IMG/VR virus record: IMGVR_UViG_3300046741_000023
Location: 1 to 32,691 of that record
Length of the DNA: 32,691 bases
Source: a virus
Reading direction: 5' to 3' (one strand)
Of the stretch, positions 5,179 to 30,042 are shown piece by piece. The translations under genes were made by a program, and so were the position numbers. The notes below the pieces were generated by a model. It did not search any database. It was given only the letters and a program-made list of their open reading frames with translations, and had not been told where the DNA came from. Every line of letters begins with the position of its first letter. The stretch's first letter is position 1.

Positions 5179-6839
5179 ATCGAAGCTCCAGCGTAGGGAT
5201 CGATCAGCGGTGCGCCTTCGTGGCGCTGCGCGCGCTCCATGGGACTCGCGGCCGCGCGCGCGGCCGCCGAGAGCTCCGCATCCGCGCGCAGCGAGAGCGG
5301 CTCCCACGCGGCCAGCGCTGCGGCATCGTAGCGATCGGGGCTCCGGCCGATGAGCTTGCGAAGCGTGATCTTGTCCGTGACTTTCAAGCGGCCATTGGCG
5401 GCTTGCTTCCATTCGAGCGCGTGGAGCTCTTTGGAGAGCTTCGCATCTTCGAGGATCGCGCCGCCTTCGGCCATCCAGCTTTCAAGGTTCGCCGCGAGCT
5501 CATCGCGCATACGGTCGTATACGGTCGGCTTGCGCACCGCGCGATCGCTGGCGCGCATGCTCACGAGAATGAAAGCACCTTCGTGTTCATCCAGATACGC
5601 GCGCAGCTGGCCATCCAGTTGCGAGCCGATCGATCCTTCCCGATCGAAGACAACTACCGGAGTCTCGCGCGGCAGCGTGAGCGGCGGCCGCAAGAGCTGG
5701 AGCAACATGGCAAGATGCTGATCCGCACTGAGTCCTTGATAGGCTCGAAGCAAAAGCATCTTGACGCCACGGCGCGCGCAAAAGACCGTTTCGTCTCCGC
5801 TGCCGGACTCACCCGCGGGATCCAAACCGATGTACAGACACCCCGCCTCCGGCGCTTCGTACCAGCGCTTTTCACTCTCGCCGATCGCGTGAAGGGAAAA
5901 GATCTTCCCTTCTTCGTTTGTGGCGTGCTCGCCCCGGACGCGCACCCGGTACAGCGCCGACTCTTCGCCCCACTCGAGACGCTTTTCCGCGATCCACTCG
6001 CTCGTGGCCAAGCCGGGGATCACCACTTCACCGCGCATCACGTTCGGCGTGGTTTCACTCGAGACGCGGATCGTTTTGTAGTGGGCTTGTTTGCTCGTGA
6101 AGGCTTCGAAAAACTCACCGGAGTTTTTCGTACCATTGCCCATAAGCACGAGCTTCGCGCCGCCGGCTCGATTGCCTTCGATCGCTTCGAAGATGAGATC
6201 CGGGACACCGCTTGCCTCGTCTACCAAGTACAAGAGATTGGATCCGGAGATGCCGGCCACGGCTTCGGCTTCCCTACTCGTGAAGCCGACGATCTCTCGA
6301 AAGTCTCCGCTCTTGAGTCCGGTCCTTGCTAACTCGCCTTGATCACCATCGATCACGGCCGAGTGCGGACATGGCACCGGGATCGCGCGGCCGTCCGGAT
6401 CTTCGAGCTTGCATGCGAGACACCGGCCGCTACGCGCACGCAACATGCGCAGCTCGCGCCAAAGGATCTGATCGACTTGCCGCGCGGTGGTGCTGGAAAG
6501 GATCACGCGCGCATCCTGAAACGAGCAAAAAAACCAGAGTGCCAATCCCGCGATGCATGCCGACTTGCCGACTTTATGACCCGAGCACACCGCTACGCGC
6601 GGATAGTCGCGCACCGCTTCCACAATCTCGATTTGCCGCGCCCACGGCTCGAAGCCGAGCACTTCCCGAAAGAAGCCCACCGGCTCGCGTCTCCACTTCG
6701 CACTCGGGAAGCGCACCCCCGTGGCGCGCTGGACTAGCGTGCGCAAGCCGATGGATAGGTCGGCGGCAAAGGTCGCATCGGCCGGCGGCAACATGGCCGC
6801 CTTGCGCTTCGCCACTTCGATGCCGACCACGCTTGTCAT
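5163..6839 (-). CDS. Terminase large subunit (packaging ATPase/nuclease)
   Basis: Motor and headful nuclease of DNA packaging. The 558-residue product has a terminase-type Walker A, CSGHKVGKS at 85-93, a Walker B LLYLVDEAS at 202-210 and a coupling-like VLMGNGT at 231-237. The C-terminal RNase H-like nuclease shows D340 in YIGLDPAGE, D399 in VVVFDREG and D504 in SPDRYDAA, the expected acidic triad. Cysteines at 140, 143 and 157 form a small insertion that may bind zinc. The family is that of Mu gp28-type and related large terminases. The start ATG at 6839 overlaps the TerS stop by ATGA, and the HTH gene starts within the last codons. Confidence 0.93.
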   Translation of the reverse strand: MTSVVGIEVAKRKAAMLPPADATFAADLSIGLRTLVQRATGVRFPSAKWRREPVGFFREVLGFEPWARQIEIVEAVRDYPRVAVCSGHKVGKSACIAGLALWFFCSFQDARVILSSTTARQVDQILWRELRMLRARSGRCLACKLEDPDGRAIPVPCPHSAVIDGDQGELARTGLKSGDFREIVGFTSREAEAVAGISGSNLLYLVDEASGVPDLIFEAIEGNRAGGAKLVLMGNGTKNSGEFFEAFTSKQAHYKTIRVSSETTPNVMRGEVVIPGLATSEWIAEKRLEWGEESALYRVRVRGEHATNEEGKIFSLHAIGESEKRWYEAPEAGCLYIGLDPAGESGSGDETVFCARRGVKMLLLRAYQGLSADQHLAMLLQLLRPPLTLPRETPVVVFDREGSIGSQLDGQLRAYLDEHEGAFILVSMRASDRAVRKPTVYDRMRDELAANLESWMAEGGAILEDAKLSKELHALEWKQAANGRLKVTDKITLRKLIGRSPDRYDAAALAAWEPLSLRADAELSAAARAAASPMERAQRHEGAPLIDPYAGASIWQRR

Positions 6840-9930: not shown

Positions 9931-10208
9931 GTCGCTTGCTCCACCCGCGCGCGCTCCAGCGCATACTGCATGCCGGCCACCACGCGCGTGTAGCCGTCGG
10001 CTACGCCAGTATTCCACCACGCCAGCGCGCTCACGATCGCCGCGGCCAGCTCCCGGATTACCGCGTCTCGGCTGCGCACCACTTGCCGAAGCCGCTCGTT
10101 TTCCGCTTGTAGCTTCGAGACTTGGTCTTGCTTGCTCGCGCGGTACAGCTTCGCGCTCTCCGGCCATCCATCCCAGTGATCGGCCAAGCTCTTCGGTTCA
10201 TCGCTCAT
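9927..10208 (-). CDS. Small coiled-coil phage protein
   Basis: A 93-residue protein that begins MSDEPKSLADHWDGWPESAK. A predicted coiled coil spans about residues 25-55 (QVSKLQAENERLRQVVRSRD), with a second helix after it. There is no membrane segment. ATGA overlaps link it to the glycoside hydrolase-like gene before it and the Trp-rich gene after it. Function unknown; it could be an adaptor or a DNA-binding accessory protein. Confidence 0.65.
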   Translation of the reverse strand: MSDEPKSLADHWDGWPESAKLYRASKQDQVSKLQAENERLRQVVRSRDAVIRELAAAIVSALAWWNTGVADGYTRVVAGMQYALERARVEQAT

Positions 10209-12079
10209 AGTCGCCCCCCGGTGCGCTGGATCCGCACCATCACGGCCACGATCAACGCCAGCACGAGTAGCAAGACCACCACAAGCACCACGATCCGCGT
10301 AGTACCAGTGGCGCGCACCGCCACTCCCGCGATCCAGTCTTTGCTCGCACGAGCCTTCGGCGCACTCGAGACGGCTTGTCCCACGTTATTGAACAAGCCC
10401 CACGCGCCTTTACCCTCCCAAGTCCCGTGAAGCGTATACAGGCTACACGGAGCGTTCATCTTCTCGCCAAACCTATCAAGCATGTACACATACGCATCAT
10501 AGGCTTCCGACTTGGCCGCCCACACATTGGCGTTGGTTAGGTGATGCATCCCGGCTTCATAGCAACCCAGCAATGGAATGCTGTGCGCGCGGCAATGCTG
10601 CTCTAGCGCCGTGGCGATCGGCTCTCCGTTCACCTTGGAGTCAACCTCCGAGCTCCAGCGCGAGAGCTTTTCCGCAGCGCCATCCACCCCGTTGCCGATG
10701 TACGGCGCAAGCGCGATCATATCGATCTTTTGACCGCGCGGATTCCATTGCGCGCTGGCGTACACGTTGCGCAAGGCTTGCGTGGTGAGATCCAGGTTGC
10801 CGGACTCGCTGAACACGCGGATCACCCGCGCACCCATGGCGCTCGCCCCGAATACCCCCTGATAGATCTCATATAGCTGGAGCGCCCGATACAGCTCGTG
10901 GGCAATCCCCTGATAGTACTGATTGCTTCCCGGCAAGCCTAACGCCTTCCCCGCGTCAATCGATTGCTGGAAGGCGCTAAACGAGCCATTCCATACTTCG
11001 TTGGATAGCTCCACATAGGCTTTCAAGGCTGGCGAGAGCTTCGCCTTGATCAGTGTGGCTTCTTGCAAGATGTAGTTATCATCGGCCAAGTATGGGTGTG
11101 TGAACCAACAATCAATGTTAGCTCGATTGCACAAGTCGATCTGCCATTCCACGGCAAGCCCGGTAGTGGACGCTGGCGAAGCCCCGTCTATGTAGATCTC
11201 CGCATTGCCGGGATCCGTCGGCAGCTTGCGCTGATTCCAGCTCTTGATCTTACTAAAGTTCACCGCGTTGGTGTCCATGTGCCGAAACACACTAAAACCC
11301 GATAGGTCGGCAAGGAATTGCGGCGACCAAATATCATCACCATTGGCGTAGGCCGTAGCCCACGCCACGCTGGACTTGTAGATCGCGGTCCCCGCCCACG
11401 GTGCGATAAACCACTCTTGCGTGCCGAGACTCATTTTGCCCGTGGTCGGCGGCGGCCCCGCGCTCGCCACCACCGCGAAGGCTTCACTAGGCGCATCGTG
11501 CCACGCCCCGGCGGCATCTAGGTGCGTCGCATACGCTTCCCATTGCCCCACGGGATCGCTCGCCTTGAAGCTCCGGCTTGCGTCCAGCGTGACATGCGCC
11601 CCCGGCTCCAGCCGCACATTGCTCAAGACTGGAGCGAGATCCGTAAACGGCCCCCCGCCGTGTGTCGCCCCCGGCGCGCGCGCCGCGATCCGGATCTCGC
11701 GCACCGTGATCGCACTTGTACCGGTGTTTCCGTAGCTCACCGAAGCCGTGAGCGGCGTGGCCGATCCCGCGACTACCACGCGCCGACCTAGCTCCAGCGC
11801 CGCCGATACGACAAGCCCGCCGCTTCCCGAGCCGCCACCGCCACCGATACCGCCCCGGCCACCGATACCGCTCACCCCGCCGGTACCGCCGCCTCCGCTG
11901 CCGCCCCGGCCACCGGTACCACCTACGCCACCGGTACCGCCGCCCACCCCGCCGGGATTCGGACATAGCAGCACCGGCGTACACGGCCCCGCGGTTTGCG
12001 CGTGTACGCTCCACGCAAAAGCCAGCACGGCCAGCACCGCAAACAGCCACACGAGATAACCCAAATCATCCCTTGTCAT
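10205..12079 (-). CDS. Secreted, membrane-anchored glycoside hydrolase-like protein
   Basis: A 624-residue protein. Residues 1-28 form a signal peptide (hydrophobic LVWLFAVLAVLAFAW, then VHAQ). Residues 43-88 are a Gly-rich linker; about 89-205 form an Ig-like beta domain; about 215-575 resemble clan-A glycoside hydrolases; 596-615 are a strong transmembrane helix with a basic end. The likely acid/base is E361 in ELSNEVWNG and the likely nucleophile E508 in CYEAGMHH. It probably acts outside the inner membrane, on a host polysaccharide or cell-wall/slime glycan. It is odd among replication-type genes. The ATG at 12079 overlaps the preceding stop by ATGA, with AAGGGA 8-10 bases upstream. The substrate is unknown, and a non-enzymatic glycan-binding role remains possible. 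Confidence 0.7.
   Translation of the reverse strand: MTRDDLGYLVWLFAVLAVLAFAWSVHAQTAGPCTPVLLCPNPGGVGGGTGGVGGTGGRGGSGGGGTGGVSGIGGRGGIGGGGGSGSGGLVVSAALELGRRVVVAGSATPLTASVSYGNTGTSAITVREIRIAARAPGATHGGGPFTDLAPVLSNVRLEPGAHVTLDASRSFKASDPVGQWEAYATHLDAAGAWHDAPSEAFAVVASAGPPPTTGKMSLGTQEWFIAPWAGTAIYKSSVAWATAYANGDDIWSPQFLADLSGFSVFRHMDTNAVNFSKIKSWNQRKLPTDPGNAEIYIDGASPASTTGLAVEWQIDLCNRANIDCWFTHPYLADDNYILQEATLIKAKLSPALKAYVELSNEVWNGSFSAFQQSIDAGKALGLPGSNQYYQGIAHELYRALQLYEIYQGVFGASAMGARVIRVFSESGNLDLTTQALRNVYASAQWNPRGQKIDMIALAPYIGNGVDGAAEKLSRWSSEVDSKVNGEPIATALEQHCRAHSIPLLGCYEAGMHHLTNANVWAAKSEAYDAYVYMLDRFGEKMNAPCSLYTLHGTWEGKGAWGLFNNVGQAVSSAPKARASKDWIAGVAVRATGTTRIVVLVVVLLLVLALIVAVMVRIQRTGGRL
11816..11953 (-). repeat. 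In-frame Gly-rich repeat region
   Basis: This part of the hydrolase gene encodes residues 43-88, built from short GGVGG, GGTGG, GGRGG and GGIGG units. At DNA level it is a low-complexity tract of GGTACC, GCCACC and CCGCC units. It probably makes a flexible linker between the signal peptide and the Ig-like domain, and its length may vary by slippage. Confidence 0.8.
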
Positions 12080-12357
12080 GATCGTTTCCCTTTTCGCCAG
12101 CCACCGCGCCGCTCGATTTTCTTCGGCCGCATGTCTTCGCTCCAGCGCTCCATCAAAGCGTGGAGCTTGATCAGTGTCCCCGGCCGCGTAGTGCGCTCTT
12201 TGCCCGTCTCGAGACGCTCCAGCCACGGCTCGCTTACCCCGGCCATGGCTGCGGCTTCGGGGATCGTGAGCGCCATGCTGCGCCGCCACGCGCGCCACGC
12301 GATCAGCTCTTCGGATACCCCGCGCTCCGTCCGGAGCTCTCGGCTTGATAGCGTCAT
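12076..12357 (-). CDS. Small XRE-type HTH protein
   Basis: A 93-residue protein with a helix-turn-helix at about residues 30-55: LTIPEAAAMAGVSEPWLERLETGKE, the common phage XRE/Cro pattern. The C-terminus is very basic (RPKKIERRGGWRKGKRS). It lies between the small membrane protein and the hydrolase-like gene and overlaps each by ATGA, so it may regulate that part of the block. Its target is not evident. Confidence 0.7.
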   Translation of the reverse strand: MTLSSRELRTERGVSEELIAWRAWRRSMALTIPEAAAMAGVSEPWLERLETGKERTTRPGTLIKLHALMERWSEDMRPKKIERRGGWRKGKRS

Positions 12358-19213: not shown

Positions 19214-19518
19214 AATCGGATCGCCGCCAACTGGAGCTCCCCTATCAAGCGCACTCGCCCACGAGCGCGGCCGCGGCCGAAGCCGCAGCGCCCACCGCCC
19301 CGACCGATCGCGCGCGCATCTTGGACTTACTCCAGCGCGCCGCCCCCGACGGCTTCACGGATGAACAGATCGCACGCATGCTCCGACTCAACCCGAGCAC
19401 CGCGCGCCCCCGCCGCATCGAACTAACGGACGCGCATCTCGTACATAACTCCGGCCGTACTCACCTCACCCGCGCCAAGCGGCGCGCGGTGGTGTGGGTG
19501 GCCGCAAAGAAGGGGTGA
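19210..19518 (+). CDS. Winged-helix DNA-binding protein
   Basis: A 102-residue protein. After a disordered Ala-rich part (about 10-35) comes a compact winged helix: ARILDLLQRAAPDGFTDEQI, then LRLNPSTARPRRIELTDAHL and the wing VHNSGRTHLTRAKRRAVVWVA. This MarR-like pattern is common in small phage proteins with an unassigned role. It overlaps its upstream neighbour by ATGA and is followed four bases later by the 349-residue protein. Confidence 0.7.
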   Translation: MKSDRRQLELPYQAHSPTSAAAAEAAAPTAPTDRARILDLLQRAAPDGFTDEQIARMLRLNPSTARPRRIELTDAHLVHNSGRTHLTRAKRRAVVWVAAKKG

Positions 19519-24536: not shown

Positions 24537-24739
24537 CCACCTACGATGAAGTGGGCGAATTCGACGCGGAAAAGTTCGAAGCGCTATTTGCGGAGCGAGA
24601 AGCCGCCGTGGACCTTCGGCTTGTGCGCGACGTGGAAGCGTGGCGCGCCTTCGTGCGCAGCCAAGAGAGCGAGCTTCGAGCGCTGGCGCGCACTCCCGAA
24701 GATGCCGAGCTCTTGATCCGGCGGATGCTCGGCCGATGA
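24533..24739 (+). CDS. Small acidic helical protein
   Basis: A 68-residue protein, mainly helical and acidic (EVGEFDAEKFEALFAEREAA, AELLIRRMLGR). It has no ribosome binding site. A -35/-10-like pair, TTGCCG-17-TAGACC, ends six bases before the ATG, the distance seen at other leaderless starts in this window; coupling to the 27-residue frame is the alternative. It overlaps the DUF3846-like gene by ATGA. I do not recognise it. Confidence 0.55.
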   Translation: MTTYDEVGEFDAEKFEALFAEREAAVDLRLVRDVEAWRAFVRSQESELRALARTPEDAELLIRRMLGR

Positions 24740-25083
24740 GCTCCACGACAATCCGAGTGCTGGTCTACCGCCCCGGAGCCCCGGCCGAAGCGCTGGACGT
24801 GGAGCACACGCTTCCGGCGCTCCAAGCGCTCGTAGGCGGCAACCTTGAAATGGTCCGGCTCCGTGGTGATGCCGTCCGGTTTCTCGGCACTGGCCAGCTC
24901 GAAGCGTACAGCCTTCGGCCGCCGCTGGTCTTGGTGTGCAACGAAGACGGCCACGACATGGGCGCACCGCGTAACCGGTGCGGCATCGTGGGGCCGTTCT
25001 TCGTGGCGCGCGCTGCCGGCTCGGAGCTCGTCTCGCTCACGGATGCCGACATAGCCGCAGCGCGCCACCTACTCGGAGACTAG
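24736..25083 (+). CDS. DUF3846-like protein
   Basis: A 115-residue protein that follows the DUF3846 pattern: VLVYRPGAPAEALDVEHTL, LQALVGGNLEMVRL, LVLVCNEDGHDMGAPRNR, GPFFVAR and SLTDADI. This domain is common in phages and plasmids; its molecular role is not settled, though the plan (a short alpha-beta domain with an NEDG/N-rich loop) is conserved. It overlaps the preceding gene by ATGA. After it come about 170 bp without a gene. Confidence 0.75.
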   Translation: MSSTTIRVLVYRPGAPAEALDVEHTLPALQALVGGNLEMVRLRGDAVRFLGTGQLEAYSLRPPLVLVCNEDGHDMGAPRNRCGIVGPFFVARAAGSELVSLTDADIAAARHLLGD

Positions 25084-25250
25084 ATGAGCGCCGATTAGCG
25101 CGCGCGGTGACAATGTGGTACAGCTTGCCCCGCGCCATGTCGTCGCACCGTGGCAAGGGTAGGACCGTGTAGGAGTCGCCCGGGAAGGTCGACAAGGCTG
25201 CCTGTCCCACGGCGGCAGCGATACCACCCGGACGGCGAACGGTGCACCTT

Positions 25251-25391
25251 TTAGAACGGAGCCCACTTGAGCGCCGCCGAGAGTAGCGCGATCACCGTAA
25301 GTCCGATGGCCACCCATTGAAGCGGCGGCATCGGTGGCCGCGCCACGAGCGAGCACAGCACCGCCACGCATAACAGGATCATTGCGAACAT
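25251..25391 (-). CDS. Possible small membrane protein
   Basis: A 46-residue reading frame (MFAMILLCVAVLCSLVARPP, then LQWVAIGLTVIALLSAALKW) with two hydrophobic segments. No ribosome binding site or promoter is visible, and a terminator lies just upstream, so expression is doubtful. I include it because the hydrophobic pattern is coherent and the gap is otherwise empty. Confidence 0.35.
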   Translation of the reverse strand: MFAMILLCVAVLCSLVARPPMPPLQWVAIGLTVIALLSAALKWAPF

Positions 25392-25408
25392 GTGCGCAGC
25401 GTACGCCC

Positions 25409-25476: not shown

Positions 25477-26091
25477 CTACTGCAGGCACACCCCGATCGC
25501 GTCTTCCCCGGTGTCGGGGTGGTGGAGCCGGCAGCGATTGCCGGCCGCACACGGCCGCGGATCCGCGCAGCCGGTGGTGATGCTGCCGGAGACTTGCCAC
25601 GTGAAGTAAAAACCCCGATACGCGCTATCGCTGTAAGCGTCGCACCCGATGGTGTGGCCATCGAAGCGGCCACCGCTGATCCGGCAAAAGCGCACCGGAG
25701 CCGGAGGCGTCCCACCGGCGGCCCCGCTCGCGCCCGCACTGCCGGCGCTCCCCGCCGACGGCGCACCGGCCGCGCCCATACCAGCACCGCCGCCGGCCGC
25801 GCCCGCTGCCGGAGCTCCAGCGCTGCCGCCGGCCCCGGCTTCGGCCACCGCGCCGGCCGCCGCACCCCCGCTCCCCGCCGACGGCGCGCCGCCCGCCGGT
25901 GGGACGCTGCCGCTGCCGGCCGTCTCGTACAGCGCCGGGGGATCACGATCCGTGAACACGATCGCCGCGTCCGGCTCGCCAGCATCCGCCGCCACCGGCT
26001 CCGCTTCGAGCTCCGGCTCGGAGCCACCCCCGCCGCAGCCGACGGCGGCCACGAGCACCACGAGCGCCGCGATCACCACCGCGCGGCTCAT
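25477..26091 (-). CDS. Phage-encoded lipoprotein with Ala/Gly/Ser-rich linker
   Basis: A 204-residue protein. Residues 1-18 form a signal peptide with a lipobox (LVVLVAAVGC), so the mature N-terminus should carry lipid at the cysteine. Residues about 25-60 are acidic; about 60-130 form an Ala/Gly/Ser linker of GAGGSAGAPAAG-type units; about 131-204 form a small Cys-containing domain (VRFCRISGGRFDGHTIGCDA, DPRPCAAGNRC, IGVCLQ). Such lipoprotein style is frequent in Myxococcota. It overlaps the 70-residue gene by ATGA and shares array promoter P1. A phage lipoprotein made from a moron-like unit may alter the cell surface, for example to exclude other phages; this is inference. The binding partner is unknown. 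Confidence 0.7.
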   Translation of the reverse strand: MSRAVVIAALVVLVAAVGCGGGGSEPELEAEPVAADAGEPDAAIVFTDRDPPALYETAGSGSVPPAGGAPSAGSGGAAAGAVAEAGAGGSAGAPAAGAAGGGAGMGAAGAPSAGSAGSAGASGAAGGTPPAPVRFCRISGGRFDGHTIGCDAYSDSAYRGFYFTWQVSGSITTGCADPRPCAAGNRCRLHHPDTGEDAIGVCLQ

Positions 26092-26300
26092 GTCACCACC
26101 GCCGAGAGCGCCGTCTCGCGTACCCACGTCGCAAGCTCTTCGTGGCCGGCGCGCTCCGCCAGCGCCACGAGCTGCGCGTATTCGGCTTCCGTGCACTTCA
26201 CCGCGATCGCGCGCACTCGCCGCAGCGCGGGATCCCCCGGTTTGCGACCTTGCCCACGTCCAGCGCCACCGTGCGTATTCTTCGTTTTCGTCTTCGTCAC
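26088..26300 (-). CDS. Small ribbon-helix-helix-like protein (array gene A)
   Basis: A 70-residue protein: MTKTKTKNTHGGAGRGQGRK, then VRAIAVKCTEAEYAQLVALA and a helix HEELATWVRETAL. A basic N-terminus followed by a strand and two helices fits a ribbon-helix-helix DNA-binding protein. GTG at 26300 follows GGAGG by seven bases. The first residues (MTKTK) are shared with genes F and G because the repeated promoter module reaches into the coding sequence. It overlaps the lipoprotein gene by ATGA. Confidence 0.65.
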   Translation of the reverse strand: MTKTKTKNTHGGAGRGQGRKPGDPALRRVRAIAVKCTEAEYAQLVALAERAGHEELATWVRETALSAVVT

Positions 26301-26319
26301 TTCACAACCTCCATCACCC

Positions 26320-26348
26320 ATACTGCCGGACGGCTTGATTGCCGTCTA
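26320..26348 (-). promoter_or_regulatory. Array promoter P1
   Basis: Minus strand: TAGACG (26343-26348), 17-bp spacer with AATCAAG, CAGTAT (26320-26325). It drives gene A and the lipoprotein. The leader ends in GGAGGTTGTGAA, shared with P4 and P5. Confidence 0.65.
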
Positions 26349-26350
26349 CC

Positions 26351-26385
26351 CAAAAACAAAACGGCCGCCATTTTGTGGCGGCCGT
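26351..26385 (-). terminator. Array terminator T1 (after gene B)
   Basis: Stem ACGGCCGCC / GGCGGCCGT with a seven-base A/T-rich loop, followed on the minus strand by TTTGTTTTTG. It ends two bases before the -35 of P1. Confidence 0.88.
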
Positions 26386-26406
26386 GGTGGGCGGGGTGGG
26401 TGGGTA

Positions 26407-26628
26407 TCAGCCGGCGGCGCGCACCGCTTCGGCGGCGGCTTCGGCGGTGGCACCCCACGCGCAGCGGCCACCGGTGCGGCGCTGCGCCACGAAGCGGCGC
26501 TCCGGCGCGCGGCCATGCCAGTCGGGACCTTCGCACACTTCGATGCCGTCGGCGGTGTGCCAGCGGCCGGCGGCGGGGATGCCGAAGGCGGTGCGGCGGC
26601 TGATTACGGGGGTGAGCTTGGTGTTCAT
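26407..26628 (-). CDS. Array gene B, small hypothetical protein
   Basis: A 73-residue protein of unknown function (MNTKLTPVISRRTAFGIPAA, then WHTADGIEVCEGPDWHGRAP, RRTGGRCAWGATAEAAAEAV). Two cysteines and several Trp suggest a small beta-rich fold with a helix at the end. ATG at 26628 lies behind a purine-rich GAAAGAAG. It has its own promoter (P2) and terminator (T1). Confidence 0.6.
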   Translation of the reverse strand: MNTKLTPVISRRTAFGIPAAGRWHTADGIEVCEGPDWHGRAPERRFVAQRRTGGRCAWGATAEAAAEAVRAAG

Positions 26629-26678
26629 CTTCGGGGCTTCTTTCGTTTCCGGCTCGCACTGCGCTGCCGACAAGACTC

Positions 26679-26706
26679 ATACTAGCAAGCTCTTGATTCC
26701 GAGCAA
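26679..26706 (-). promoter_or_regulatory. Array promoter P2
   Basis: Minus strand: TTGCTC (26701-26706), 16-bp spacer with AATCAAG, TAGTAT (26679-26684). Its leader (GAGTCTTGTCGGCAGCGCAG...) is nearly identical to that of P3, forming a second leader type in the array. Confidence 0.7.
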
Positions 26707-26708
26707 CC

Positions 26709-26744
26709 CAAAAACAAGAACGGCCGCCATTTTGTGGCGGCCGT
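26709..26744 (-). terminator. Array terminator T2 (after gene C)
   Basis: Same stem ACGGCCGCC / GGCGGCCGT, ACAAAAT loop on the minus strand, then TTCTTGTTTTTG. It abuts P2. Confidence 0.88.
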
Positions 26745-26764
26745 CTCGGTGGATGTGGGCGCTG

Positions 26765-27073
26765 CTACGGTTCTTGGTTCTCCCCGGTGGTCCAATCCAC
26801 CCAACACAGTACATGCCGAGCCGGCGCGCCGAGCACCTTCACGAGCTTTGCCGACGGCTTGCGCGCTGCCGGCTCTCCGCAGTGCGCGTCTTTTTCGAGG
26901 TTACTCCGAAGACTGATCCCACATGTAATACAGAACCAAAAACCGGGATCCTCCGAAGATGCGATTCCCGGCCGCGGGGTAACCGTGAAATCTTTCCCGT
27001 TGTAAACAAACATCTCCCCGGCCACGGCCGCGCGCCGATCCTGCATTGTTGCCTTGCGTGTCTTACGTGCCAT
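26765..27073 (-). CDS. Array gene C, zinc-finger-like small protein
   Basis: A 102-residue protein. Residues about 20-35 are MFVYNGKDFTVTPRPGI, then FWFCITCGISLRSNLEKDAHC gives CxxC followed by HC, a possible zinc site, and the end is Trp-rich (CWVDWTTGE). ATG at 27073 lacks a strong ribosome binding site; an ATG ten codons later is possible. It is the second gene of the P3 unit, separated from gene D by a repeated linker hairpin. Confidence 0.6.
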   Translation of the reverse strand: MARKTRKATMQDRRAAVAGEMFVYNGKDFTVTPRPGIASSEDPGFWFCITCGISLRSNLEKDAHCGEPAARKPSAKLVKVLGAPARHVLCWVDWTTGENQEP

Positions 27074-27089
27074 CCAACGTCCACACCTT

Positions 27090-27150
27090 CCCGAGCCGAA
27101 TCAGCTCGCCTAGGTGGCGCGAGGCTTCCCCCCGCGCCACCCCGGCCAGC
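27090..27150. repeat. Linker repeat, copy 1
   Basis: A 61-bp G/C-rich repeat, about 85% identical to 27722-27781. On the minus strand it contains GGTGGCGCG / CGCGCCACC, a nine-pair hairpin without a U tract. In both places it lies between two genes of one unit and may adjust expression of the second gene. Confidence 0.7.
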
Positions 27151-27157
27151 CGGCGGC

Positions 27158-27361
27158 TCACTCCGGCAGGAGCATCCACAAGAGCGCCAAGAAGGCTTGG
27201 TGATTGTCCCATGCATCCGCGGGGCTCCACCGGGTGGTGCGCTTGCCGAGCGCGCTCTCGTACTCGCGCCAGTGGCCAGCGTAGCCGAGCGCGTTTTGGA
27301 CGTTGAGCGCCTTCAAGTAGGCGGCACTGTTTATCTCGTGACAATCTGCGTTGGTGTTCAT
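27158..27361 (-). CDS. Array gene D, small hypothetical protein
   Basis: A 67-residue protein, mostly helical (INSAAYLKALNVQNALGYAG, WREYESALGKRTTRW, AWDNHQAFLALLWMLLPE). Unknown family. ATG at 27361 follows GAAGAGAG. First gene of the P3 unit; the open frame to 27406 includes promoter-leader sequence and is not used. Confidence 0.6.
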   Translation of the reverse strand: MNTNADCHEINSAAYLKALNVQNALGYAGHWREYESALGKRTTRWSPADAWDNHQAFLALLWMLLPE

Positions 27362-27411
27362 CGTGTTTCTCTCTTCGCTTCCCGGCTCGCACTGCGCTGC
27401 CGACAAGACTC

Positions 27412-27439
27412 ATACTAGCGCGCGCTTGTTTCCGAGCAA
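27412..27439 (-). promoter_or_regulatory. Array promoter P3
   Basis: Minus strand: TTGCTC (27434-27439), 16-bp spacer with AAACAAG (one base from the common AATCAAG), TAGTAT (27412-27417). Leader as in P2. Confidence 0.68.
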
Positions 27440-27442
27440 CCC

Positions 27443-27477
27443 CAAAACAAGAACGGCCGCCATTTTGTGGCGGCCGT
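27443..27477 (-). terminator. Array terminator T3 (after gene E)
   Basis: Same 9-bp stem ACGGCCGCC / GGCGGCCGT (27453-27461 and 27469-27477), then TTCTTGTTTTGG on the minus strand. It abuts P3. Confidence 0.88.
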
Positions 27478-27496
27478 CTCGGTGGGTGTGGGCGAC

Positions 27497-27700
27497 TTAG
27501 CCCCGAAGCGCGGCATCGAAGGCGGCGCGGCGCGCGATCTCGGCGTTGCACCGCCTACACGTCACCTTGGCCGCATCCGTGGTGAAGGCGAGTGCGAGCT
27601 TGTGCATAGCCGGTGTCAAGCCCATACACAGCGGCCCGATCTCACCGTTCACATGTTCTAGGCGCATGTGAGTCTTGAACTTCGGTTTCCGGACAATCAT
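27497..27700 (-). CDS. Array gene E, small CRRC-motif protein
   Basis: A 67-residue basic protein (MIVRKPKFKTHMRLEHVNGE, then IGPLCMGLTPAMHKLALAF, AAKVTCRRCNAEIARRAAF). A single CxxC plus His residues could bind zinc in a dimer. ATG at 27700 has GGAG eight to nine bases upstream. Second gene of the P4 unit. Confidence 0.6.
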   Translation of the reverse strand: MIVRKPKFKTHMRLEHVNGEIGPLCMGLTPAMHKLALAFTTDAAKVTCRRCNAEIARRAAFDAALRG

Positions 27701-27721
27701 TACTTACGACTCCATTCGTTT

Positions 27722-27781
27722 CCCGAGCCTACCGGCTCGCCTAAGGCGGCGCGAGGTTTCCCCCGCGCCACCCCGGCCAGC
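27722..27781. repeat. Linker repeat, copy 2
   Basis: Second copy of the repeat at 27090-27150, between genes F and E. It keeps a GGCGCG / CGCGCC hairpin, though its outer pairs differ from copy 1. Confidence 0.7.
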
Positions 27782-27782
27782 G

Positions 27783-27968
27783 CTAGCCCCGGAGCGCCGC
27801 GAGCTCTCGTAGGAGCACATTCGTGCGCTCCGCCGCCGCCCACGCGCGCGCCAGACTGGCCGGCCGATCGTTGCGCGCGGCTTCCACCGCGCGGTGTTCC
27901 GCCTTCGAAGCCTTGCGCAAATCCGCCCGCACTTCCGTCTCACCGCGTACCGTCTTCGTCTTCGTCAT
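27783..27968 (-). CDS. Array gene F, small helical protein
   Basis: A 61-residue, highly charged helical protein (MTKTKTVRGETEVRADLRKA, KAEHRAVEAARNDRPASLAR, RTNVLLRELAALRG). It shares MTKTK with genes A and G. ATG at 27968 follows GGAGGTTGTGAAC. First gene of the P4 unit; unknown function. Confidence 0.6.
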   Translation of the reverse strand: MTKTKTVRGETEVRADLRKASKAEHRAVEAARNDRPASLARAWAAAERTNVLLRELAALRG

Positions 27969-27988
27969 GTTCACAACCTCCACCACTC

Positions 27989-28016
27989 ATCCTAGCGGAG
28001 TCTTGATTGGCGGCAA
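27989..28016 (-). promoter_or_regulatory. Array promoter P4
   Basis: Minus strand: TTGCCG (28011-28016), 16-bp spacer CCAATCAAGACTCCGC, TAGGAT (27989-27994). Leader GAGTGGTGGAGGTTGTGAAC is near-identical to P5. Confidence 0.72.
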
Positions 28017-28020
28017 CCCC

Positions 28021-28054
28021 AAAACAAGAACGGCCGCCATTTTGTGGCGGCCGT
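28021..28054 (-). terminator. Array terminator T4 (after gene G)
   Basis: Stem ACGGCCGCC / GGCGGCCGT (28030-28038 and 28046-28054), then TTCTTGTTTT on the minus strand. It abuts P4. Confidence 0.88.
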
Positions 28055-28072
28055 GTGGGCGGGACGGTGCGT

Positions 28073-28270
28073 CTACCGGTTCCACGGCGCGGCCGGGTTG
28101 CGCCATGCCGGCATCTCGGCCGCCGGGTGGTCCGCCATAATTTGGCGCGCTTCGGCCACCGATCGACACTCCACGGTGCTCCAGCCGCCGTCGGCATCCC
28201 CCGGCCCCCTGATCTTGAGCACGTAGCCCGCCGCCACTCGTACCGGGAGAATGATTTTTGTCTTCGTCAT
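28073..28270 (-). CDS. Array gene G, small hypothetical protein
   Basis: A 65-residue protein with a beta-rich first half (MTKTKIILPVRVAAGYVLKI, GGWSTVECRSVAEARQIM) and a Pro/Trp-rich end (MPAWRNPAAPWNR). Unknown family. ATG at 28270 follows GGAGGTTGCGAAC. Driven by P5 and ended by T4. Confidence 0.6.
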   Translation of the reverse strand: MTKTKIILPVRVAAGYVLKIRGPGDADGGWSTVECRSVAEARQIMADHPAAEMPAWRNPAAPWNR

Positions 28271-28290
28271 GTTCGCAACCTCCACCACTC

Positions 28291-28318
28291 ATCCTAGCGG
28301 AGTCTTGATTGCGTGCAA
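28291..28318 (-). promoter_or_regulatory. Array promoter P5
   Basis: Minus strand: TTGCAC (28313-28318), 16-bp spacer GCAATCAAGACTCCGC, TAGGAT (28291-28296). It differs from P4 at only a few bases. Confidence 0.72.
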
Positions 28319-28320
28319 CC

Positions 28321-28356
28321 CAAAATCAAAACGGCCGCCTCTTTCGGGGCGGCCGT
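28321..28356 (-). terminator. Array terminator T5 (after gene H)
   Basis: Stem ACGGCCGCC / GGCGGCCGT (28331-28339 and 28348-28356) with a different loop from T1-T4, then TTTTGATTTTG on the minus strand. It abuts P5. Confidence 0.85.
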
Positions 28357-28377
28357 GTGGGTGGGGCGGTGGCGCGC

Positions 28378-28587
28378 TTATACCAGGTGTGCGCTTGCGG
28401 CTTCGCCGCCCACAACCTCTAGCGGCTCCCCGGTGCCACCGGCGGCGCGAGCCGCTTTGAGTGCGTCGGCACGATGCTTGAAGGCGCGAGCCGCACCCTG
28501 CTTCGGGGTGCGCAGCCACGCGCCGCCCACGATCACGCGGAAATACGATCCACACCATTGCTCCGGAGCCACTAGAACGATTTGCAT
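28378..28587 (-). CDS. Array gene H, small hypothetical protein
   Basis: A 69-residue protein: MQIVLVAPEQWCGSYFRVIV, then RTPKQGAARAFKHRADALKA and a Gly-rich end. A strand pair followed by a helix is likely. No ribosome binding site is present; the -10 of P6 (TAGGCT) ends six bases before the ATG at 28587, so the mRNA is probably leaderless. Ended by T5. Unknown function. Confidence 0.62.
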   Translation of the reverse strand: MQIVLVAPEQWCGSYFRVIVGGAWLRTPKQGAARAFKHRADALKAARAAGGTGEPLEVVGGEAASAHLV

Positions 28588-28593
28588 AAGAAG

Positions 28594-28621
28594 AGCCTAT
28601 CACGGTCTTGATTGGCGTCTA
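28594..28621 (-). promoter_or_regulatory. Array promoter P6, leaderless
   Basis: Minus strand: TAGACG (28616-28621), 16-bp spacer with AATCAAG, TAGGCT (28594-28599), six bases, then ATG. It lacks the ribosome-binding leader of P1, P4 and P5. Confidence 0.65.
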
Positions 28622-28697
28622 CCCGAAATCAAGCTGTGCAATCATTCGGCGGCGGCCATGTGCGCAACGCAAAGGGGATCAGCTCCCTCCGCTGTAC
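28622..28697 (-). other. Short transcribed-looking unit without a clear gene
   Basis: It follows promoter P7 and begins with GGAGGGAG, a good ribosome binding site, but no open frame longer than a few codons starts at a usual distance. A decayed piece of the array terminator (GGCCGCCGCC) is visible near 28648-28657. It may be a small RNA or a unit that lost its gene. Confidence 0.4.
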
Positions 28698-28726
28698 AGC
28701 ATAGCAGCCGGCTTGATTGCTGTCAA
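28698..28726 (-). promoter_or_regulatory. Array promoter P7, orphan
   Basis: Minus strand: perfect TTGACA (28721-28726), 17-bp spacer with AATCAAG, TATGCT (28698-28703). By sequence it is the strongest of the seven, yet no convincing gene follows. The palindrome GCTGTACAGC (28691-28700) overlaps its -10 and start region. Confidence 0.68.
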
Positions 28727-29543: not shown

Positions 29544-29764
29544 ACGCGGTGGACATGTTCTTCGAGCGCGCGCGCCGACGGCCGGATCGGTGTGCGCTGT
29601 GCATCATGGCCAAAGCGGCGAAGCGCGTGGATCTCGTGGCACTGGATGATGCGGCTACGCGCGTGGAGCATCGGCAATTGGTACCGCTGTGCGAGCCGTG
29701 CTTAGCCGCCTATCTGAGTTACGCGGGTGATGCTGCGGCGCTGATCCCCGGGGCGAAGCCATGA
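29540..29764 (+). CDS. Small two-CxxC protein
   Basis: A 74-residue protein with CALC (about 18-21) and CEPC (about 51-54), enough for one zinc site, joined by a segment VDLVALDDAATRVEHRQLVP. It overlaps its neighbours by ATGA. Function unknown. Confidence 0.65.
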   Translation: MNAVDMFFERARRRPDRCALCIMAKAAKRVDLVALDDAATRVEHRQLVPLCEPCLAAYLSYAGDAAALIPGAKP

Positions 29765-30042
29765 TCGAAGATGAACCGGCCCCGCTGTACCAACGCGATC
29801 TCGGCAACGGTTCGGAGGTTACCGTGTGGCCGATGCTCGGCGGCAAAGCGCGCGTATGTCTCGGACCGATCGGCGGACTCGGCTACGAAGACGGCTACTG
29901 CTACGCGCGCCCACGCCAAGCCATCGCCGCGGCGATGGTGTGGAGCGGTGAAGGCGATCCGCTGGATGGATGGCACCGCCACCCGTTTAGCGGCCGTCGG
30001 CGCGAAGGCGGCGATCCGACCAAAGAGGTTGTGCGGTGGTGA
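29761..30042 (+). CDS. Small hypothetical phage protein
   Basis: A 93-residue protein with beta-type segments (GSEVTVWPMLGGKARVCLGP, GYEDGYCYARPRQAIAAAMV) and a Trp/His-rich end. The pattern VTVWPxxGGxxRVxxG is frequent in small phage genes of unknown role. ATGA overlap with the preceding gene; GTGA overlap with the next. Confidence 0.65.
   Translation: MIEDEPAPLYQRDLGNGSEVTVWPMLGGKARVCLGPIGGLGYEDGYCYARPRQAIAAAMVWSGEGDPLDGWHRHPFSGRRREGGDPTKEVVRW

Follow-up and report, generated by a model that had tools for sequence, protein, structure and literature searches.

How a phage might control and exchange a row of small, mutually unrelated genes is the question raised by a 32,691-bp IMG/VR contig, IMGVR_UViG_3300046741_000023 (the window), in which seven near-identical promoter modules lie head to tail on the minus strand between positions 26,319 and 28,737. 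A first-pass annotation had described this array as promoter-terminator cassettes whose genes could be swapped at shared junctions and which may be a store of host-interaction genes expressed in the lysogen. Our analysis of the array and of its counterparts in other viral contigs suggests instead, with somewhat better than even confidence, that it represents an accessory-gene regulon of independent cassettes, which the RNA polymerase of the host would fire early and which a putative ribbon-helix-helix (RHH) protein, repressing also its own gene, would then shut off. The window carries identifiable phage genes (capsid, portal, terminase, primase and integrase) and is 99.97% identical to, and circularly permuted relative to, a second contig, IMGVR_UViG_3300046835_000038 (46,197 bp), so that both derive from the same phage; the pair was therefore rejected as independent evidence of cassette exchange.

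Promoter modules with a palindrome over the -35 box

The seven modules, located at 26334, 26692, 27425, 28002, 28304, 28607 and 28712 and all on the minus strand, proved to be real: none was expected by chance in 100 dinucleotide shuffles, and no further copy occurs in the remainder of the window or of the 46-kb genome. In the 5' to 3' direction, each follows the pattern TTG[A/T]TTTnGGGT[T/A]GnnnnnAATCAA (AAACAA in one copy), with the -10 box behind it, and forms a 25-bp palindrome with arms TTGATT/AATCAA that is centered on the -35 box, the latter starting at palindrome position 12. The -35 hexamers (TTGCNN, TTGACA or TAGACG) and the TAGNAT-like -10 hexamers (TAGTAT, TAGGAT, TAGGCT, TATGCT or CAGTAT) fit sigma-70 and are separated by 16-17 bp. 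The element directly abutting the terminators, originally taken for the -35 box, is actually the left palindrome arm, which lies 27-28 nt from the -10 box and thus cannot serve as a -35. While the distance from the palindrome to the true -35 box is fixed, that to the -10 box varies by 1 nt, as expected for an operator laid over a promoter; the palindrome moreover covers roughly -46 to -22, which is the position of a repressor site. On the basis of this position and geometry, we consider the 25-bp palindromes to be candidate operators.

All genes of the array are read leftward, in the order P7/P6-H, P5-G, P4-F-E, P3-D-C, P2-B and P1-A-lipoprotein. The outermost module, P7 (28698-28737), contains the operator TTGATTTAGGGTTGACAGCAATCAA and a -35 box TTGACA separated by 17 bp from the -10 box TATGCT, and is followed after 105 bp by P6 (28593-28632; operator TTGATTTCGGGTAGACGCCAATCAA, -35 TAGACG, -10 TAGGCT), with an ATG 6 nt past the -10 box. 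P7 had been regarded as a unit without a gene, and there is indeed no gene between it and P6; however, the simplest view is that it forms no separate unit and serves gene H as a tandem promoter. The next four modules have 16-bp spacers, namely P5 (28290-28329; TTGCAC and TAGGAT), P4 (27988-28027; TTGCCG and TAGGAT), P3 (27411-27450; TTGCTC and TAGTAT) and P2 (26678-26717; TTGCTC and TAGTAT), the leader of P3 being almost the same as that of P2. The last module, P1 (26319-26359), combines the operator TTGTTTTTGGGTAGACGGCAATCAA with a -35 box TAGACG, a 17-bp spacer and a -10 box CAGTAT.

Terminators, junctions and cassette genes

As initially described, five junctions contain an intrinsic terminator hairpin with the same stem (ACGGCCGCC/GGCGGCCGT). 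These hairpins lead into P5 (28331-28356), P4 (28030-28054), P3 (27453-27478), P2 (26720-26745) and P1 (26361-26385), again on the minus strand, and end at 28331, 28030, 27453, 26720 and 26361, respectively. Four of them are identical over 25 nt, loop included, while the hairpin at 28331-28356 has a different loop. Each stops exactly where the next operator starts, and the left operator arm (TTGATTT/TTGTTTT) doubles as the U-tract. The junctions are far more similar to one another than the genes are: those at P2 and P3 agree in 92% of 123 nt and those at P4 and P5 in 83% of 115 nt, and the linker between D and C (27088-27150) is repeated between F and E (27720-27781) with 87.5% identity. Judged from the sequences, the near-identical junctions and identical hairpins are characteristic of junctions that were copied or recombined recently.

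The proteins encoded between the modules are small and, consistent with the first description, unrelated, no similarity at E<0.01 being detected when the cassette proteins were compared with one another. On the minus strand throughout, these are H (28378-28587, 69 amino acids), G (28073-28270, 65 amino acids), F (27783-27968, 61 amino acids), E (27497-27700, 67 amino acids), D (27158-27361, 67 amino acids), C (26765-27073, 102 amino acids), B (26407-26628, 73 amino acids) and A (26088-26300, 70 amino acids), followed in the P1 unit by a lipoprotein-like gene (25477-26091). Searches of the cassette proteins with Pfam, PHROGs and PADLOC returned nothing informative except for gene A, and PADLOC nothing at all; below the cut-offs, G had a weak YCII-like match and E weak zinc-finger-like matches. 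The base composition of the array (GC 0.64-0.66) does not deviate from that of the contig (0.64).

The spacing between promoter and gene was examined in the 35 modules of this phage and of the three further contigs described below. In 25 of these a start codon (24 ATG and one GTG) lies 6-7 nt past the -10 box, where transcription should begin, and the predicted start sites thus imply leaderless mRNAs. In most remaining modules the leader is longer, and several of these leaders contain a Shine-Dalgarno-like GGAGG. In the window, only P6-H is of the leaderless type.

Related arrays in other phages

When viral contigs were scanned with the module pattern, true modules were found in three further contigs. 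The first, IMGVR_UViG_3300018432_000019 (G3, 45.9 kb), is syntenic with the window (capsid and terminase 69% and 67% identical at the amino acid level). Of its two modules, one precedes a zinc-motif gene and the other the RHH and lipoprotein genes; a terminator abuts one of the two. The other two are 3300046791_000268 (G1, 52.6 kb), with 18 modules, most of them lacking an abutting terminator, and 3300048606_000120 (G5, 109.5 kb), with eight; G1 has no significant DNA in common with the window and G5 a single 70-nt spot. All modules share the arrangement of -35 box, 16-17 bp and -10 box with a palindrome centered on the -35, and although the palindrome sequence varies from phage to phage, its position does not. 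Of 11 possible arm matches, the modules have on average 7.3 in the window, 8.5 in G3, 6.6 in G1 and 8.8 in G5, compared to 2.9 in random 25-mers. A scan of a genome collection with the operator pattern gave 27 single matches in unrelated bacteria, which were judged to be chance and rejected.

A fifth phage contig, 3300043353_000042 (G12, 107.7 kb), was reached via gene B. Its 14 modules show the same geometry (-35, 16 bp, -10) and include both leaderless-type and longer-leader modules, with a different, non-palindromic 22-bp element, AAAGTTGTTGCGTTGAAGCGAA, at the same place; repeats of a 170-nt junction (95% and 86%) stand in front of different genes. Just past this array, at about 47.2-48.5 kb (L118:9650-10965), lie many 20-28 nt repeats with the core GTTACCCG in both orientations, which may represent iterons or else another set of operators.

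Copies of gene B are present in the window, G5 and G12, each under the operator of its own phage, i.e., under three different operators. Two further families are common to arrays, one to G5 (27551) and G12 (44151), the other to G1 (366) and G5 (27109). Regulon membership is therefore conserved while operator and neighbors change. In addition, at the corresponding locus of G3 the RHH and lipoprotein genes are kept, the latter at the same place, while one unrelated cassette replaces the others of the window. Relatives with the same genes in the same order, the finding named at the outset as one that would count against the exchange of cassettes, were thus not observed, and cassette genes are common to otherwise unrelated phages. 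With regard to the proposed swapping of genes at junctions, copied junctions do precede unrelated genes, which is consistent with recombination as a route of cassette exchange, but no exchange event was caught, the only near-identical contig being the same phage. A 93-amino-acid protein encoded at 29761-30042 on the plus strand of the window has homologues in G3, G5 and G12; these lie within or close to the respective array and are invariably encoded on the other strand.

A putative RHH protein as candidate regulator

The P1 cassette, the last in the order of transcription, encodes with gene A a putative RHH protein that we regard as the candidate regulator of the array. Homologues were found in all four palindrome arrays (G3 19277-19486, G1 5243-5455 and G5 25148-25399; hmmsearch E 1e-38 to 3e-10), sharing an N-terminal GGARxGAGR motif and an RHH-like region, and among the families seeded from shared genes this was the only one present in all four genomes with TTGATT-type palindromes. 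The gene was detected neither in G12, which has a different operator, nor in 3300046714_000400 (G11), a structural relative without modules and the single one returned by a capsid-based search. In the window, G3 and G1 the RHH gene stands directly behind its own module, while that of G5 lies downstream, as part of the terminal unit. The window and G3 appear to have other residues in the predicted strand than G1 and G5, and their operators likewise differ, which is suggestive only. The Pfam matches of the family (NikA-like, MobC_2 and RHH_7) are all below curated cut-offs, the best at 3e-5; three of the four members match NikA-like below the gathering score, and ParD was matched at E 0.15. A scan of viral contigs with the RHH profile also returned two GGA-GxG proteins, neither accompanied by modules, and G3 encodes outside its array (L060:13171-13467, minus strand) a second, weaker RHH-like protein (E 1e-5).

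Proposed mechanism and alternatives

In the mechanism that we favor, each cassette would consist of a sigma-70-type promoter with an operator over its -35 box, one or two small genes and, at five junctions, a terminator. Upon phage entry, host RNA polymerase would fire all array promoters at once; as levels of the RHH protein from the P1 cassette rise, it would occupy the palindromes, that of its own promoter among them, and close the battery. An early burst followed by shut-off is suggested because a palindrome covers every promoter, the linked regulator gene shares this control, and the promoters are of sigma-70 type. Steady expression in the lysogen, as first suggested, is not supported, given an operator over every promoter and a candidate repressor encoded in the array itself; the array may instead be expressed in a burst early on, or the lysogen may keep it repressed. 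The small proteins would probably act on the host, in takeover or counter-defense, the latter function being a guess, and the shared junctions would allow gain, loss and reshuffling of cassettes.

Several observations weigh against this mechanism. The RHH assignment of the gene A family rests on the sub-threshold Pfam matches given above, the AlphaFold model is weak (pLDDT 68, two helices after an extended N-terminus) and Foldseek was uninformative. The half-sites are spaced by approximately 18-19 bp from center to center, longer than for Arc, CopG or MetJ. The co-occurrence of operator and RHH gene is seen in only four lineages, two of which are related; the G1 module that precedes the RHH gene is among the least palindromic (4/11), and other modules of G1 lie far from that gene. 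Finally, no cassette protein has a recognized anti-defense function, the sole hint being a sub-threshold match (E 1e-4) of a G1 cassette protein (L098:9378-9860, minus strand) to Lar restriction-alleviation proteins.

Alternatively, the palindromes could be operators of an immunity repressor, RHH or other, that keeps the array silent in the prophage and releases it on induction. Phage P1 C1 and the SPBRE/MrpR system of SPbeta provide parallels for such a lysogeny regulon. In the window phage, a gene for a tyrosine integrase (phrog_1, E 5e-27) does lie at a distance of 2 kb from the array, and many-operator prophage regulons are on record (PMC10516654). We nevertheless consider this unlikely, as the operators are confined to the accessory array, the 46-kb genome having none at its structural, replication or integrase genes, and the linked regulator gene is itself an array member, no separate repressor having been identified.

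It appears quite improbable that the cassettes are independent morons expressed constitutively from the prophage, with repeats left over from insertion or duplication and a palindrome of no regulatory role. The promoter-gene-terminator units, the near-identical junctions and the variability of the locus between otherwise syntenic phages would fit this explanation, but unrelated phages retain the palindrome between different flanks, G1 with its mostly terminator-free modules among them, and it changes its sequence per phage while remaining centered on the -35 box; nor is the GC content deviant. The lowest probability is assigned to the conserved block being a promoter recognized by another polymerase or an alternative sigma factor, or a host-regulator site, instead of the operator of a phage repressor. 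This would account for the same arrangement in every module and for the non-palindromic element of G12 in the same geometry. In contrast, the sigma-70 fit of the promoter boxes, the palindrome spacing that is fixed to the -35 yet varies to the -10, and the different palindromes of different phages, accompanied by an RHH gene, argue against it.

Beyond the early regulon with RHH shut-off, we tentatively entertain, while regarding it as doubtful, a more general possibility: a widespread modular counter-defense platform in which often-leaderless single-gene cassettes acquire the local operator-promoter-terminator junction, one small RHH repressor times them all, and genes cross unrelated phages and are re-wired to the operators found there. 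The module offers a regulatory tag for small proteins that otherwise lack similarity to anything: across the five phages, about 50 modules identify such proteins as likely to be made together and to act on the host; in SIRV2 such a tag was shown to lead to new anti-defense genes (PMC11065993). Gene B under three operators provides a ready test of gene entry into a regulon, and the RHH-palindrome pairs allow the study of a regulator and many operators changing specificity together.

Comparison with known systems

Cluster A phage stoperators are 13-bp asymmetric sites and were rejected as a counterpart. The array resembles anti-CRISPR/Aca operons, the SIRV2 Aca8 regulon and mycobacteriophage ESAS sites and is a member of none of them. 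In SIRV2, the small early genes have a promoter in common, and Aca8 is proposed to turn them off (PMC11065993). Similar to the array, that regulon comprises small, mostly single and mutually dissimilar genes behind one strong promoter block, a virus-specific motif that the regulator gene in the set also carries, with shut-off by the regulator proposed (PMC11065993). However, SIRV2 has archaeal TATA/BRE promoters and a winged helix-turn-helix (HTH) regulator, whereas the array belongs to bacterial dsDNA phages and has sigma-70 promoters, an RHH protein, intrinsic junction terminators and a palindrome centered on the -35 box.

Aca proteins repress via inverted repeats in the core promoter, and bacterial acr-aca operons (Aca1-10) likewise have a small DNA-binding protein in last position and a burst followed by shut-off (PMC9410906). 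The 25-bp palindrome centered on the -35 box agrees with such a repeat; in contrast, each acr-aca locus is a single operon that combines an HTH regulator with known anti-CRISPRs, while here one candidate regulator with RHH-type and no HTH matches in Pfam would serve 2-18 separate promoters.

The nearest bacterial-phage counterpart is the ESAS sites of cluster K, which are repeated SigA-like promoters with an imperfect inverted repeat upstream of non-structural genes, a consensus varying between subclusters and a suggested repression (PMC3203893, PMC11373665). The array modules likewise have a SigA-like promoter overlapping an imperfect inverted repeat. Unlike those of the array, ESAS sites are dispersed (seven in Adephagia), their regulator is unknown and shared junction terminators are not described (PMC3203893, PMC11373665); ESAS sites are also tied to SAS, and the 13-bp SAS GGGATAGGAGCCC, which in cluster K lies at start codons, had no match here with up to two mismatches allowed. 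As in SPbeta, one phage repressor would act on many operators at promoters, but MrpR, a master repressor of lysis that resembles tyrosine recombinases, has a 15-bp motif, and its sites lie across the prophage (PMC10516654). Classical morons share with the cassettes the own promoter and terminator (seven promoters and five junction terminators here) and the variable locus, but not the tandem number, shared operator, linked regulator and typical GC content.

Affiliation and neighboring genes

Among named phages, the terminase had matches of less than 60% identity throughout, and two cassette proteins had no match there. Lipoproteins with Gly-rich or acidic linkers led us to guess at a host of myxobacterial type. 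Between the integrase gene and the array, a DUF3846 protein is encoded at 24640-25083 on the plus strand. A long open frame at 10205-12298 on the minus strand includes a Gly-rich linker, GGVGGTGGRGG, as well as a hydrophobic stretch at the C terminus.

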